A DNA stretch of 64,000 bases from Dehalococcoidia bacterium. GTDB lineage: Bacteria > Chloroflexota > Dehalococcoidia > Tepidiformales > Tepidiformaceae. Both the position numbers and the translations under genes were made by a program. Shown here piece by piece: positions 41,146 through 46,063 of this stretch. Positions within the stretch are counted from its first letter, which is position 1, and every line of letters starts with the position of its first letter. The DNA is taken from contig VXLW01000045.1 of NCBI GenBank assembly GCA_009841435.1, forward strand, positions 1 to 64,000, written 5' to 3'. Below the pieces are notes generated by a model that saw nothing but the letters and a program-made list of their open reading frames with translations, made no database searches and had not been told where the DNA came from.

Positions 41146-41898
41146 GTGACCCAGGCCGAGAACCCGCTCTGGAAAACTCTGACGGGCTCTGACATCGACG
41201 CCCCCTGGCTCGCTGACCGCCGGAGCATCGCCGCGACCTGCATTTCCGAGGTGCTCGGAACCTTCGCCCTCGTCTTCTTTAGCGCCGGCGCGGTGGCGGT
41301 TGACGCCGCCAGCGACGGCGCTGTCACACCCGTTGGGATGGGCCTCGCGGCCGGGCTGGTTGTGGTCGCCGTCATCTTCGGTCTCGGCCACGTCTCGGGC
41401 GCTCACATCAACCCCGTCGTAACGCTCGCCTTCCGCCTCTCGGGCCGCATCGGCTCGCTGCGGGCGCTCGTCTATGTGATCGCGCAGCTTGCCGGCAGCG
41501 TGCTCGCGGGGCTCGCCATCGTCGCGATCGTCGGGGATGCCGGCGATGCCGGGGCTACTGCGCCCCGCATCGGCGGCGTGGAGGCCGCGCTCCTCGCCGA
41601 GATTGTCCTCGCGTTCTTCCTTGTCCTCGTGCTCTTGGGGGTGGCCACCGACGAGCGCGCCCAGGGCAGCTTCGCCGCGATCGCCGTCGGCTCCTACGTG
41701 GGCCTTGCCATCCTCGCCTGGGGACCCATCGGGAACGCCTCCATGAATCCCGCCCGCTCCCTCGGCCCGGCGATCTTCGGAGCGGAGTGGAGCGCCCACT
41801 GGATCTACTGGGTCGGACCCATCGTCGGTTCCGCGCTCGCCGTGTTCATCTACGCCTTCCTGCGGGCCCGCCGCTCCCCGGACGCCGACTCGTCATAA
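41146..41898 (+). CDS. MIP-family channel (aquaporin/glyceroporin)
   Basis: Membrane channel of 250 aa with six spans and two half-helices. The first NPA box reads GAHINPVVTLAFRLSG (NPV variant) and the second GNASMNPARSLGPAIFG. SEVLGTFALVFFSAGAVAV is the first span. The residues around the second NPA (ARS) fit a water-selective pore, but glycerol, ammonia or CO2 cannot be excluded. The GTG at 41146 lies behind GGAGGTG, and TATACT at 41113-41118 is a likely -10 element. It belongs in the inner membrane. Confidence 0.88.
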   Translation: MTQAENPLWKTLTGSDIDAPWLADRRSIAATCISEVLGTFALVFFSAGAVAVDAASDGAVTPVGMGLAAGLVVVAVIFGLGHVSGAHINPVVTLAFRLSGRIGSLRALVYVIAQLAGSVLAGLAIVAIVGDAGDAGATAPRIGGVEAALLAEIVLAFFLVLVLLGVATDERAQGSFAAIAVGSYVGLAILAWGPIGNASMNPARSLGPAIFGAEWSAHWIYWVGPIVGSALAVFIYAFLRARRSPDADSS

Positions 41899-41937: not shown

Positions 41938-42780
41938 ATGACTGCCCTCGACGCCTACCAGGCCCGGATCGATGCGGTGAACGCCCAGCGCCGCGACCTC
42001 GCCTTGGTCGCCAACGACTCCGATCGCTGGAGCAAGTGGGCGGAGGCCTTCCGCTTCAACCCCCGTCGCGAGCTGGACGCGAACGAAGCGGCCATCGCCG
42101 CGCTCGTCCGCCCCGACGACCACGTCGTCGATGTCGGGGGTGGCGCCGGACGCGTCGGATTGCCGCTCGCGCTGCGCTGCCGCGCCCTCACGAACGCCGA
42201 GCCATCCCCCGGCATGGGTGACGAGTTCCTCGCCTCCGCCCGCGAAGCTGGCATCACGAACGCCACACTTGAACGCGCCTCCTGGCTCGATGCTGAAGCC
42301 GAGGGCGACTTCGTCCTCAGCGTCGATGTCGTCTACTTCGTGCGCGAGATCGATGAGTTCGTCCTGAAGCTGGACCGTAGCGCCTCGCGCCGCGCCGCCA
42401 TCTGGATCTGGAGCCCCACGCCCCCCGCTCGCAACGCCCGCCTCTTCGAGATTGCGCACGGCGTCCCGCTGGAGCGCGCTCCCGACCACCGTGAGCTCCT
42501 CCCCGTGATGTGGGAGGCCGGTCTCCTGCCCGAGGTGCGCCTCCTGCCGGAACCGTTCACATGGCCCGAGCGTGCGGAGTTCCCCACGACCGAGGAGGAT
42601 GCAGTGGCGTTTGGTCTGGATGATGTCGAGGCGGGCGACGTGGCCGGAGCCGCGGGCCGCGTCGCCGCCGACCTCGGCGAGCTCTTCTCGCGCGACGGAG
42701 GCGAGTGGCGCCCGAACTGGCGCCCGCCCTTGCAGGGACTGCTGATCACCTGGGAGACCGGTGGTGCTGACGCCCGCTGA
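41938..42780 (+). CDS. class I SAM-dependent methyltransferase
   Basis: Protein of 280 aa. The SAM-binding motif I is VVDVGGGAGRVGLPLALR at about residue 62, motif II NAEPSPGM, and VLSVDVVYFVREIDEF follows in the acidic loop region. The N-terminal helical part and the C-terminal tail (WRPPLQGLLITWE) give no substrate clue. TATCCT at 41925-41930 ends seven bases before the ATG and no Shine-Dalgarno is present. It overlaps the next gene by 20 bp and heads a three-gene operon with an isomerase and a cupin. Confidence 0.85.
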   Translation: MTALDAYQARIDAVNAQRRDLALVANDSDRWSKWAEAFRFNPRRELDANEAAIAALVRPDDHVVDVGGGAGRVGLPLALRCRALTNAEPSPGMGDEFLASAREAGITNATLERASWLDAEAEGDFVLSVDVVYFVREIDEFVLKLDRSASRRAAIWIWSPTPPARNARLFEIAHGVPLERAPDHRELLPVMWEAGLLPEVRLLPEPFTWPERAEFPTTEEDAVAFGLDDVEAGDVAGAAGRVAADLGELFSRDGGEWRPNWRPPLQGLLITWETGGADAR

Positions 42781-43585
42781 CCTCGTCCTCTGCCTCGGCG
42801 CGGTGGGAACCGCGACCTTCGCCGAGCGTGCTCGCGCCGCCCGGGCCAACGGCTTCGCGGGCCTCTCCATGTGGATGTCGCACTACGACGAGGCCCGCGC
42901 CGAGGGCCTCTCGAACGCGGAGATGCGCGCAATCCTCGACCGCGAGGGTGTGGTCCTGGCGATGCTGGAGTACATCACCGCCTGGGCCGAGGGCCCGGCC
43001 AACCGCGACGCCATCGAAGAGGAGACGGCGCGCATCTGCGGCATCGCCGAGGAGCTTGGCTCGGACACCGTGCTGGCAGTCACGATGGAGCGGTCCACCG
43101 ACCCCGCCGCCGCTGCGGAGGGGCTCGCCATCGCCTGCGATGTGGCCGCCCGCCACGGACAGCGCCTAGGCGTCGAGTTCCTGCCCTGGACGGGCATCCC
43201 CAACCTCGCCACCGCCTGGCCCATCGTTCGCGACGCCGATCGCCCCAACGCCGGCCTCGTGCTCGACGCCTGGCACTGGTTCCGCTCCGGCCCCGACCCC
43301 GACCTGCTCCGCAGCATCCCTGGCGAGAACGTCATCCACCTCCAGATCAGCGACGCCCCCGCCGACCCCGATCCGGACGTCGTCGCGGAGACCATCGGGC
43401 ACCGCCTCCTCCCGGGTCAGGGCGACATCGACCTCCTCGGTCTCCTCCGCATCCTAGACGACATCGGCCGGCAGGGTCCCACCGCCGTCGAGGTCTTCAG
43501 CGATTGGCTGCGCGGCCACCCCATCGAAGAGGGCGCCCGCCTCGCCTCGGAGGCCGCGCGCACCGTGCTTGCAGCCGCCCGATGA
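42761..43585 (+). CDS. sugar-phosphate isomerase/epimerase-like TIM barrel
   Basis: Protein of 274 aa of the xylose-isomerase-like TIM-barrel superfamily. The metal-ligand segments are LGVEFLPWTGIPN (Glu), NAGLVLDAWHWFRSG (Asp and His), and VIHLQISDAP (His), in the usual spacing; GQGDIDLLGLLRIL and PTAVEVFSDWL end the barrel with the last Glu. Enzymes of this type epimerise or isomerise sugars, inosose or hydroxypyruvate. The GTG start lies inside the end of the methyltransferase gene, so it is translationally coupled. Confidence 0.85.
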   Translation: MVLTPADLVLCLGAVGTATFAERARAARANGFAGLSMWMSHYDEARAEGLSNAEMRAILDREGVVLAMLEYITAWAEGPANRDAIEEETARICGIAEELGSDTVLAVTMERSTDPAAAAEGLAIACDVAARHGQRLGVEFLPWTGIPNLATAWPIVRDADRPNAGLVLDAWHWFRSGPDPDLLRSIPGENVIHLQISDAPADPDPDVVAETIGHRLLPGQGDIDLLGLLRILDDIGRQGPTAVEVFSDWLRGHPIEEGARLASEAARTVLAAAR

Positions 43586-43899
43586 CCGGCGACAACCTCC
43601 TCCGCGACCTCCCCGACGACCTTCCGGAGGAGTTGGTAGAGACGCTGCTGGAAAGCACCTCCGTCCGCATCGAGCGCATCGTCTCGACGGGACACGCCTC
43701 CCCCGAGGGCTTCTGGTACGACCAGCCCCAACACGAGTTCGTGCTGGTCGTGAGAGGACGTGCCCATCTCGAATTCGACGACGGCGGGTCGCTGGATCTG
43801 GAGCCGGGAGGTTGGGCCGACATCCCCGCGCACTGCCGCCACCGCGTCGCCTGGACCTCCCCGGACGAGCCCACCGTCTGGCTCGCTATCCACTTCTGA
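43582..43899 (+). CDS. small cupin protein
   Basis: Single-cupin protein of 105 aa. Cupin motif 1 is seen as QHEFVLVVRGRAHLEFDDG, where the usual HxH is reduced to a single His/Glu pair, and motif 2 as GGWADIPAHCRHRVAW with its His ligands. It could be a metal-dependent isomerase or dioxygenase. ATGA overlap with the upstream isomerase gene makes it the third member of that operon. Confidence 0.85.
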   Translation: MTGDNLLRDLPDDLPEELVETLLESTSVRIERIVSTGHASPEGFWYDQPQHEFVLVVRGRAHLEFDDGGSLDLEPGGWADIPAHCRHRVAWTSPDEPTVWLAIHF

Positions 43900-43959
43900 C
43901 CCTCTGTGCCGCCGGCCCCTTGCCTCTTGGGCGGCAACCTGAAACGCTGGATGTACAGC

Positions 43960-44082
43960 TTCTGCTGTCGCCAAATCCCCTCCGGGGGAGCGGGGGAACC
44001 GCCACATATGGGGCGTACCGCGAAAGCGGACGGCACCTCCAGTCGTAGCCCGACAGCTAACCCCGCCGGCGTAGGAGGGACC
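43960..44082 (+). promoter_or_regulatory. cyclic di-AMP riboswitch (ydaO/yuaA type)
   Basis: The 335-bp gap after the cupin gene holds a clear ydaO-type aptamer. Matches to the known fold include TCGCC at 43968-43972 pairing with GGCG at 44068-44071 (P1), the core GGGGGAACCGCC (about 43992), GGGGCGTACC, hairpin CCGC-GAAA-GCGG, hairpin GTC-GTAGCCC-GAC, the invariant CCGACAGCTAAC at 44050-44061, and ACCTCC pairing with GGAGGGA. The pseudoknot pair CGGGG/CCCCG replaces CGGAG/CTCCG of the Thermoanaerobacter aptamer, a compensated change. A stem CGCTTCG/CGAAGCG at about 44102-44130 may be the expression platform. The next gene is the 62-aa orphan below. Confidence 0.9.
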
Positions 44083-44234
44083 TCACGTGGGGGTCTCTCG
44101 ATCGCTTCGACTCGGTTCGCAGCGAAGCGCCCAGACCCGAAACGACCGTATGCAGTCGTGTGACCCCGACGACGACACCTGGCGATGTTCCCGTGGCGGG
44201 AACGCCGCCGCCCTTGCTCATCGGAGGTGTTTCT

Positions 44235-44423
44235 GTGATTGAGCATGAACTGGTTCGGTCGGTCCTTCTGGAGCGCGTCATCAAGGCAAACTCGCCCGAG
44301 GCACGCTTCCGCAAGGAGTGGCAGGCCCTGCGCGCCGATGAGGCGCGCGACCGCGACGTCGAAGCGGGCGAGCATCCCGTCGACCTCTTCCTCCAGGGGA
44401 AGGATCTCGAGCGGGCGGCCTAA
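44235..44423 (+). CDS. 62-aa orphan protein downstream of c-di-AMP riboswitch
   Basis: Small charged protein, MIEHELVRSVLLERVIKANS at the start and EHPVDLFLQGKDLERAA at the end, predicted mostly helical and soluble. I do not recognise the family. The GTG at 44235 is chosen because GGAGGTG lies five bases upstream; an in-frame GTG 75 bp earlier has no ribosome site. It is the only gene between the c-di-AMP riboswitch and two terminator hairpins, so it should be the riboswitch's sole target. Usual targets are potassium transporters, osmolyte systems and cell-wall hydrolases, none of which it resembles. Confidence 0.65.
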   Translation: MIEHELVRSVLLERVIKANSPEARFRKEWQALRADEARDRDVEAGEHPVDLFLQGKDLERAA

Positions 44424-44440
44424 CCGCCTCTCCGCGGGAC

Positions 44441-44506
44441 CCCGCCTCCGGGCGGGGCTCCGGTCTGGGTAGAAACGCAAGGCGGGAGCCATTCGGCTCC
44501 CGCCTT
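44441..44506 (+). terminator. double hairpin terminator before dnaX
   Basis: Two hairpins lie in series: CCCCGCC/GGCGGGG (44441-44458, 4-nt loop) and a perfect 12-bp stem AAGGCGGGAGCC/GGCTCCCGCCTT around ATTC (44479-44506). The second starts with AA and ends in TT. They separate the riboswitch gene from dnaX. Confidence 0.85.
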
Positions 44507-44572
44507 CGTGATCCCGCGGGCGAAAATCCGTTCTATACTTGCGGACACCCGATCCGTGGTCCGGGAGGGACG

Positions 44573-46063
44573 GTGCTTTACGGGAAGTGGCGCCCACGTG
44601 GCTTCGAGGAGGTGGTCGGCCAGGACCACGTCGTCGAGACGCTTCGCAACGCCCTCGCCACCGACAAGGTCGCCCACGCCTACCTCTTCGCCGGCCCCCG
44701 TGGCACCGGCAAGACCACCACCGCCCGCATCCTCGCCAAGGCCGTCAACTGCCCTGAACTCGCCCGAGGCGAGCCCTGCAATGACTGCGGTCCCTGCGAC
44801 GCCATCGACCGCGGCGCTGCCCTCGACCTGATCGAGATGGACGCCGCCAGCAACCGCGGCATCGACGACGTCCGCGAGTTGCGCGACAAGATCGCCTTCG
44901 CCCCCAGTGACCTCGAGCGGAAGGTATACCTCCTCGACGAGGTCCACATGCTCACGACGGGCGCCTTCAACGCCCTCCTCAAGACCCTCGAAGAGCCGCC
45001 GCCGCACGCCATCTTCATCCTCGCCACCACCGAGCTCCACGAGATCCCGGCGACCATCACCTCGCGCTGCCAGCGCTTCGACTTCCGCCGCATCCCCATC
45101 GAGGCAATGGTCGAGCGTCTGCGGTTTGTCGCCGAACAGGAGGGGTTCAGCGTCCCCGACGAGGGCCTCCTGGCCATCGCCCGCGAGGCCCGCGGCGCCC
45201 TCCGCGACGCCATCACCCTGCTCGAGCAGATCGCCTCGATGTACGGGCCTTCCCCCAGCACCGACGACGTGCTCGAATCGCTCGGCCTTGTGCGCGACGA
45301 GCGCACGGACAAGCTCGCCGGCGCCCTTGCCGAGCGCGATCTCGGCGCCGCGCTCGAGATCGCCCGCGAGGTAGCCGGCGACGGGCTCGACATCGCCCGC
45401 TTCACACGTGAGACCATCGACACCCTGCGCGAGCGCCTGCTCGTCGCCGCGCGCGACCGCACCCCCGACGTCGGCGTCCTGACGACCGCCGTCGCCGAGC
45501 TTGCCGGCGCAGACTTCCGCCGCGACCCCGGCAGCCCCGTCCCCCTCGAGGTCGCCTGCGCGGCCGCCGTGCTCGGCCCCGCCCAGCCCGCCGCCGCTCC
45601 AGCGGGCGCCGCTGCCGGCGCGAACGGACAACCGGCGCGGGGCGGCCAGAGGCCCCAGCGCCGCCAACAGGGTCGCCGCCGCGACCAGCGTGACGAGAGC
45701 CGCGAGGAGCGCTTCCTCCGGGAACTGTACGAGCGCTGCCGGATGACGCAGCCCGCGCTTGCCGCCTGGCTCAACGGCTCCTGCGAGGTGCTCGCCATGG
45801 ATGGTGACGAGCTGAAGCTCGGCTTCTACCATCCCATCCACATGCAGAAGATCGCGAACGACGGCCGCACGCTCGTGGAGCAGAAGGCGGAGGAACTGCT
45901 GAAGCGCCCCGTGTCGCTTGCGGTCGAGCGGATCGAGCGCAGCGCACCCGCCAGCCGTCCGGCCCGGGGCGGACACTTGGCGGCGGCGGCGCGCGAGATG
46001 GGCGCGAAACCCGTCGAATCCGGGCCGCCCCCGCGCCCAAGGCCCCCCGAGGAGGAGTTCTGA
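44573..46063 (+). CDS. dnaX: DNA polymerase III subunit gamma/tau
   Basis: Clamp-loader ATPase of 496 aa. Family start LYGKWRPRGFEEVVGQDHVVETL; Walker A FAGPRGTGKTTTARIL; zinc module CPELARGEPCNDCGPC; DEVHMLTTGAFNALLKTLEEPP and SRCQRFDFRRI follow in the AAA+ core. The tail contains a Pro/Ala/Arg-rich linker (about 340-380) and a short C-terminal domain. The GTG at 44573 lies behind GGGAGGGACG; TATACT at 44534-44539 is a likely -10 element. The linker has no slippery A-run, so a frameshifted gamma form is not evident. It leads the dnaX-ebfC-recR-recO operon. Confidence 0.95.
   Translation: MLYGKWRPRGFEEVVGQDHVVETLRNALATDKVAHAYLFAGPRGTGKTTTARILAKAVNCPELARGEPCNDCGPCDAIDRGAALDLIEMDAASNRGIDDVRELRDKIAFAPSDLERKVYLLDEVHMLTTGAFNALLKTLEEPPPHAIFILATTELHEIPATITSRCQRFDFRRIPIEAMVERLRFVAEQEGFSVPDEGLLAIAREARGALRDAITLLEQIASMYGPSPSTDDVLESLGLVRDERTDKLAGALAERDLGAALEIAREVAGDGLDIARFTRETIDTLRERLLVAARDRTPDVGVLTTAVAELAGADFRRDPGSPVPLEVACAAAVLGPAQPAAAPAGAAAGANGQPARGGQRPQRRQQGRRRDQRDESREERFLRELYERCRMTQPALAAWLNGSCEVLAMDGDELKLGFYHPIHMQKIANDGRTLVEQKAEELLKRPVSLAVERIERSAPASRPARGGHLAAAAREMGAKPVESGPPPRPRPPEEEF

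Follow-up and report, generated by a model that had tools for sequence, protein, structure and literature searches.

A c-di-AMP riboswitch aptamer paired with the gene of a 62-aa orphan protein in a family of Chloroflexota

Results

Organization of the locus

The window analyzed herein, a stretch of 64,000 nucleotides, belongs to a draft genome (G000; 2.7 Mb in 127 contigs, approximately 90% complete) and carries on its + strand, in this order, a c-di-AMP riboswitch aptamer (43959-44086), a leader with several predicted hairpins, a short open reading frame (44235-44423), two further hairpins, and dnaX. The short frame, which begins with GTG 148 nt after the aptamer, ends with TAA, and encodes 62 aa representing a new orphan protein family, is preceded by the Shine-Dalgarno (SD) sequence GGAGGTG (44223-44229, + strand), and CGGAGG was present at this site in 9/9 relatives. 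A promoter scan found no sigma-70-type promoter for the riboswitch unit. Farther upstream lie a gene for a MIP-family channel (41146-41898), just under the curated cut-off, and one whose product shows weak similarity to the QuiC model (42761-43585), far under the cut-off.

The aptamer

Scanning the 64-kb window with RF00379 revealed a single c-di-AMP aptamer, on the + strand, which matched the full model (positions 1-134 of 134). Its score of 64.8 bits exceeds the gathering score of 38, with E = 9.3e-13 over the 64 kb and 9.9e-15 in a short scan. The original prediction of an RF00379 aptamer was thus borne out by the Infernal check that it had proposed, and the segments named there, GGGGGAACCGCC, CCGACAGCTAAC, ACCTCC, and GGAGGGA, were all found. 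The pseudoknot strands ACCUCC in the loop and GGAGGGA in the 3' flank were both present and invariant in 9/9 genomes of the window's genus, leaving no covariation to be read. The compensatory changes once claimed for the pseudoknot pairs CGGGG/CCCCG were not seen, these pairs being invariant within the genus. At the 5' edge of the aptamer, a short hairpin ACAGC-uucu-GCUGU (43955-43968, + strand; 43953-43973 in the folding scan) did vary on both sides in two of its five pairs (G-C/A-U/G-U, 4:3:2; C-G/U-A, 8:1), with the pairing kept in all nine relatives.

The genome G000 carries three RF00379 aptamers, and contig 60 encodes a predicted diadenylate cyclase matching PF02457 (DAC domain) with 142.2 bits (E = 1.1e-41); with this DAC domain protein, the genome appears to have a gene for making c-di-AMP.

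Conservation of the 62-aa frame within the genus

The frame was found in 9 of the 60 genomes of the relatives search, namely in all nine of the window's genus, and each of these retained the aptamer, leader, SD, GTG start, and stop, in good agreement with the proposal of a single conserved orphan gene with its own GGAGGTG site behind the aptamer. Insertions and deletions within the frame comprised whole codons, and the variable columns of the genus alignment were more frequent at the third codon position (44 of 64) than at the others (34 and 33). The dN/dS ratio was below 1 in all 8 pairs computed of the 36 possible (0.26-0.96), the value of 0.96 arising from the closest pair computed, in which there are few changes. 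An independent pair outside the genus (G015/G033, described below) gave a ratio of approximately 0.49 with a small third-position excess (12, 12, and 15 of 54). The N-terminal half of the protein (MIEHELxRSVLLER...NSPExRFRKEW) is nearly fixed in the genus and the C-terminal half drifts, with the last two alanines remaining invariant.

Relatives in other genera

Diverged relatives of 55-60 aa having a P..R...EW core were identified in four genomes (G013, G015, G017, and G033) of three more genera. A profile of the nine genus sequences gave weak matches in G013 (E = 9.8e-4) and G015 (0.05) over 38 genomes of the family. When 110 aptamer loci, most from the same bacterial family and some from the class, were read downstream, a motif scan showed G013 and G015, and a listing of open reading frames added G033 and G017; having been found by looking behind aptamers, the latter two are not independent of the aptamer association. 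Membership was assessed among the 1072 sense and antisense frames in the first 500 nt behind the 110 aptamers, with members left out of the profiles against circularity. The genus-only profile ranked G013 (E = 1.3e-5) and G015 (3.4e-4) first, and leave-out profiles recovered G033 at 1.6e-4 with both genomes of its genus omitted and G017 at 2.8e-5 with itself omitted, the best non-member frame reaching 0.19. A profile restricted to the window's genus gave non-significant values for both G033 (0.76) and G017 (0.85) among these frames, and thus both are linked to the family via intermediate relatives. The E-values of 1e-18 to 1e-22 obtained from a profile containing the members prove nothing about membership.

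Taken as a whole, the protein occurs in 13 of the 38 family genomes and in 4 of 18 genera, and an aptamer lies directly upstream in 13/13 members, 11 of them above the gathering score and two below it. The homologue check suggested in the original prediction therefore came out in its favor, the relatives also following RF00379-type aptamers. Outside the genus, the aptamers stand 80 nt (G013, 63.4 bits), 93 nt (G017, 65.3 bits), 139 nt (G015, 33.1 bits), and 141 nt (G033, 30.7 bits) upstream of the relative. The two low-scoring aptamers, at loci L079 (1402-1535, - strand; 33.1 bits) and L080 (1485-1619, - strand; 30.7 bits), come before the small gene in one genus. G017, a 3.5-Mb genome, has 11 RF00379 matches over the cut-off, the highest number in any genome to which this model was applied. 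Considering its presence in nine of nine genus genomes plus four genomes of three further genera, the pairing of frame and aptamer goes beyond chance.

No convincing copy lacking an aptamer was found by profile search of the family, class, and phylum genome samples. In the family, 15 of the 38 genomes gave a profile match with an E of 0.1 or below, comprising the nine of the genus, G013, G015, G011, G031, G034, and G060. In the last four, the fetched stretches contained no RF00379 match at the gathering score, nor, near the G011, G034, and G060 matches, any at E up to 1. A similar-looking 'RFREEY' frame of G034 and G060, which has no aptamer, was discarded, as it gave no match at 0.05 with a wider profile. 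In the class, 32 of the 393 genomes had a match with an E of 0.05 or below, and 13 of these were the known members (11 of them included in the profile); the other 19 had E-values no better than 6e-4, some of them for frames containing stops, and no RF00379 match at the gathering score was present at the 15 loci scanned of the 17 belonging to them (L179 and L181 were left out, as were three matches without a locus). The phylum search returned 2 of 400 genomes, the window's own and G455, and the latter was rejected because its match lies in a frame with a stop and shows no RF00379 at the gathering score. Neither the 393 class genomes nor the 400 phylum genomes, both of which are samples, thus contained a convincing further member.

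The neighbors of the unit differ between genera, with dnaX in the window's genus, the large SRP RNA in G017, and, on the other strand, an enoyl-CoA-hydratase-like gene (named by reading) in G013. Since the pair persists while its neighbors change, aptamer and small gene appear to move together as one cassette. As judged from these genomes, the pairing is one that persists across four genera in different surroundings.

Homology and predicted fold of the protein

Homology searches with 11 members of the family matched no NCBIfam family, no Pfam family by more than one member (four families were matched by one member each, with a best E of 0.031), and nothing in a PDB sequence search. The earlier idea of a small regulator hence found no support, as the protein showed no homology to anything named in NCBIfam, Pfam, or PDB. 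By these searches, it would belong to none of the known c-di-AMP target families, i.e., the K+, osmolyte, and amino-acid transporters and the cell-wall genes.

An AlphaFold model based on 11 sequences predicted helices at residues 2-18, 21-44, and 48-61, forming a helical hairpin with a poorly predicted tail. The confidence was moderate (mean pLDDT 79.5, pTM 0.42), with block means of 87, 93, 93, and 85 over residues 1-40 and of 55-63 beyond, and the model had no match in a Foldseek search of the PDB. The charge is not conserved, the pI being 5.3 in the window protein and 5.8-9.5 in the relatives. The model shows a helix-NSP-helix hairpin, no signal peptide or membrane segment is visible by eye, and no known catalytic fold was found; from this, our guess would be that the protein serves the osmotic/K+ response as a small adaptor that binds another protein.

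Leader structure and direction of the switch

A terminator scan found no T-tailed terminator between the aptamer and the gene, and no terminator-like site in the whole of 43850-44620, against 0.5 expected from shuffled sequences. Blocking of the ribosome site is therefore the control that we propose. The candidate switching element is a 10-pair hairpin GAGGGACCUC/GGGGUCUCUC (44075-44099, + strand), which takes in part of the GGAGGG strand of the pseudoknot. Alone it folds with -15.3 kcal/mol (z -3.0), a stability reached by 0/200 shuffles. All 10 pairs were unchanged in 9/9 genomes, variation being confined to the loop, and the hairpin is thus beyond proof by covariation since the stem never varies. 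In folds of the full leader, its probability was 0.92-1.00 in three of the nine sequences and 0.00-0.37 in the other six. A second leader hairpin GUUCCCGUGGCGGGAAC (44178-44212, + strand; -20 kcal/mol, z -3.05), located upstream of the ribosome site, shows one both-side change (C-G/U-A, 5:4) with the pairing kept in 9/9; 4 of its 13 pairs are broken, each in one sequence.

We lean slightly towards a translational OFF switch, which is favored by the precedent of Corynebacterium glutamicum nlpC more than by the folds. At high c-di-AMP (high K+, low osmolarity), the aptamer would capture GGAGGG, so that the 25-nt hairpin 44075-44099, which shares this strand, would open; the leader would then rearrange and the ribosome site be blocked. 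When c-di-AMP falls upon osmotic stress or K+ shortage, the 62-aa protein would be made. In constrained folds of the nine leaders, the ribosome site was 50-81% paired with the aptamer free and 50-79% with the aptamer held unavailable, and no SD-blocking structure common to the nine was found. A 9-pair complementarity between GGAGGGACC at the 3' end of the aptamer and GGUCCUUCU at codons 9-12 is, by reading, invariant in the genus. As a translational switch this pairing is only a lead, because codon invariance there is not unusual, the codon being kept at 8 of the 16 invariant residues other than Met and Trp in the genus alignment.

The opposite direction, in which bound c-di-AMP would free the ribosome site and the protein would be active when c-di-AMP is high, seems unlikely to us. 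It would accord with the consensus fold, where the SD finds its partner in the CCCC of a GACCCC segment, and with the folds of G002 and G007, and partly of G008, in which GGGGUCUC pairs the GACCCC segment instead when the aptamer is unavailable. However, this arrangement is favored in just two to three of the nine sequences, the SD pairing is nearly equal between the two aptamer states in the constrained folds, and the characterized members of the family are described as OFF switches in PMC9960051.

Ligand of the cassette aptamers

It is improbable, in our estimation, that the cassette aptamers have drifted to another ligand and that the gene is no c-di-AMP target, a view for which the low cassette scores could be invoked (60.5-71.3 bits in the window's genus, 63.4 and 65.3 in two further genera, and 33.1 and 30.7 in the fourth). 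For comparison, we used a reference of 40 core columns conserved in 73 of 106 non-cassette aptamers. Drift would be consistent with the aptamers of G015 and G033, each of which departs at 11 of the 40 columns, the GUCAGCUAACC core included, and falls below the gathering score; degeneration or another specificity may underlie these two. Against it stands the window aptamer, which matched 38 of the 40 columns by program count and 39 by reading, one of its two departures being a matter of gap placement by reading, leaving one real departure. Likewise, G013 departs at three columns and G017 at two, and in each of them two departures represent a shared G-C to A-U exchange that keeps the model pair. 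On the basis of its sequence, the window aptamer is a canonical one of the ydaO type.

The end of the transcript and dnaX

Behind the gene, a first hairpin (44434-44466, + strand; -23.9 kcal/mol, z -2.5) shows a both-side change (C-G/U-A, 4:4) among the eight of nine genomes aligned and is decayed in G008. A second, with 12 pairs (44479-44508, + strand; -25.4 kcal/mol, z -6.4), likewise shows a both-side change (A-U/G-C, 4:4) among eight of nine genomes and is the probable transcript end. No T-run was found at either. Of the two terminator hairpins originally proposed, the stable and partly covarying structures were thus recovered, but not their character as T-tailed terminators, given the lack of T-runs and of predicted sites in this region. 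The gene dnaX, whose product passes at least two DnaX model cut-offs, starts at 44573 on the + strand, 149 nt past the small gene. Among the other eight genomes of the genus, seven likewise show its start behind the small gene, the sequence of the eighth, G004, being cut off. At 44529-44539, CGTTCTATACT stands before dnaX, is kept in 7/9 genus genomes, and is likely a dnaX promoter element. A TATACT box before dnaX occurs in 8/9 genus genomes and is absent in G004.

The position of dnaX on the same strand 149 nt downstream, the retention of this order in the genus, and the lack of T-runs at the intervening hairpins could suggest that the riboswitch controls the dnaX cluster, with the 62-aa frame as a mere leader peptide or filler. 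We consider this quite improbable, since both hairpins covary, the TATACT box precedes dnaX in 8/9 genomes, 20 of 22 dnaX loci from other genomes of the family have no RF00379 at the gathering score within 1.5-kb flanks, and G013, G015, G017, and G033 carry the relative on a different contig from dnaX (in draft assemblies). A scan of 29 dnaX loci likewise gave no small-protein motif ahead of the gene. As for transcripts running on into dnaX, which the original prediction named as refuting, the covarying hairpins and the TATACT box speak against them and the missing T-runs in their favor. A leader peptide for dnaX is accordingly disfavored by the hairpins, the promoter box, and the lack of dnaX linkage outside the genus.

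That 44235-44423 is untranslated and part of a riboswitch-controlled structured RNA is very improbable. In favor of this view, the DNA of its first half shows strong conservation and the rare codon CTT (19 of 250 Leu codons in eight window genes) is kept at codon 11 in 9/9. Against it stand the whole-codon indels, the SD and start in 9/9, the excess of changes at third positions, a dN/dS below 1 in each of two separate clades, and a similarity between the proteins that extends over four genera.

Other genes behind c-di-AMP aptamers

A census of targets within 600 nt of the 110 aptamers was made by simple sequence signatures, which miss members. A 72-aa zinc ribbon was the most frequent (22 aptamers), followed by a glycosyltransferase (19) and a second zinc ribbon, of about 60 aa (16). 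MFS-like proteins accounted for 8 aptamers, KamA-like radical SAM proteins for 3, and trehalose-phosphate-synthase-like proteins for 2, with 36 unclassified; the MFS, SulP, and trehalose names were given by reading. The 72-aa zinc ribbon (MPALQEAPP..CPKC..; L001 on contig 3 of G000 plus 21 loci) is nearly identical across genera and had weak Pfam matches to zinc ribbons and similar families, all below the cut-off. The second zinc-ribbon family (L016 plus 15 loci), of about 57-62 aa and ending in PEW(R/Q)(F/Y)G, stands directly behind aptamers. A single representative was used as query for each zinc-ribbon family, for the radical SAM proteins, and for the glycosyltransferases, and the glycosyltransferase alone passed a curated cut-off. 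The radical SAM protein L002 (contig 72 of G000) scored 120.9 bits with the KamA model, whose cut-off is 199.2, and stayed below the aminomutase cut-offs; an osmolyte role would fit this protein.

Discussion

A probable new type of c-di-AMP target

We moderately favor the interpretation that the locus constitutes a self-contained c-di-AMP-regulated unit of the OFF type, comprising the aptamer, a structured leader, one 62-aa protein gene, and hairpins before dnaX. Most likely, it is an ordinary c-di-AMP OFF switch, probably one of translation, whose monocistronic gene encodes a small cytosolic protein of the osmotic/K+ response, and this protein is likely to be a true addition to the targets of the c-di-AMP osmotic/potassium signal. 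The KamA-like, trehalose-phosphate-synthase-like, glycosyltransferase, and transporter-like genes behind other aptamers form the context of this unit.

The suggestion that the gene represents a new type of regulon member held in that the protein is unlike the known targets; the case is less singular than supposed, since in the same bacterial family c-di-AMP aptamers also precede small orphan genes of other kinds. From the census, small orphan targets appear to be common in this lineage, the 62-aa protein being one member of a wider pattern. It is conceivable, though we would not put it higher, that c-di-AMP signaling in this Chloroflexota family works largely via small orphan proteins, an undescribed arm of the osmotic/K+ response to which at least three families without mutual relation would belong (P..R...EW and the 72-aa and 60-aa zinc ribbons; about 55-72 aa), each with its own riboswitch. 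A soluble small protein that keeps a c-di-AMP aptamer across genera while its neighbors change points to an unrecognized effector of the messenger. Among the matches listed in a literature search, no paper on c-di-AMP riboswitches in Chloroflexota and none describing such small orphan targets was found, and no paper joining Tepidiforma with a riboswitch was found. The excerpted text of PMC11018627 names Chloroflexota for a split KdpD, not for riboswitches.

Comparison with known systems

According to PMC9960051, the known c-di-AMP riboswitches mostly control transporters of ions, osmoprotectants, or amino acids in Bacillales and Clostridia, and genes of the cell wall in Actinobacteria. Compared with the ydaO/yuaA-type riboswitches (RF00379), such as Bacillus subtilis ydaO/kimA, the window unit is alike in its match to the whole model, its pseudoknot strands, and the DAC gene in the genome; in contrast to ydaO/kimA, it has no T-tailed terminator between aptamer and gene, and its target is an orphan 62-aa protein rather than a K+ importer.

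The C. glutamicum nlpC riboswitch (PMC9960051), the closest published precedent, is without a canonical terminator and is read by its authors as translational and repressing; in their proposal, a CTCC segment that is exposed and the ribosome-site GGAG take part. The window unit also has no canonical terminator and carries GGAG/CCUC segments at the 3' end of its aptamer, whereas nlpC, as presented there, encodes a cell-wall peptidase heading a seven-gene operon and the window unit a single small gene. A parallel to a small target comes from the 72-aa and ~60-aa zinc-ribbon genes of the same bacterial family: although their products are cysteine-rich and bear no visible sequence relation to the 62-aa protein, they share with it the arrangement of a small orphan gene placed directly after a c-di-AMP aptamer.
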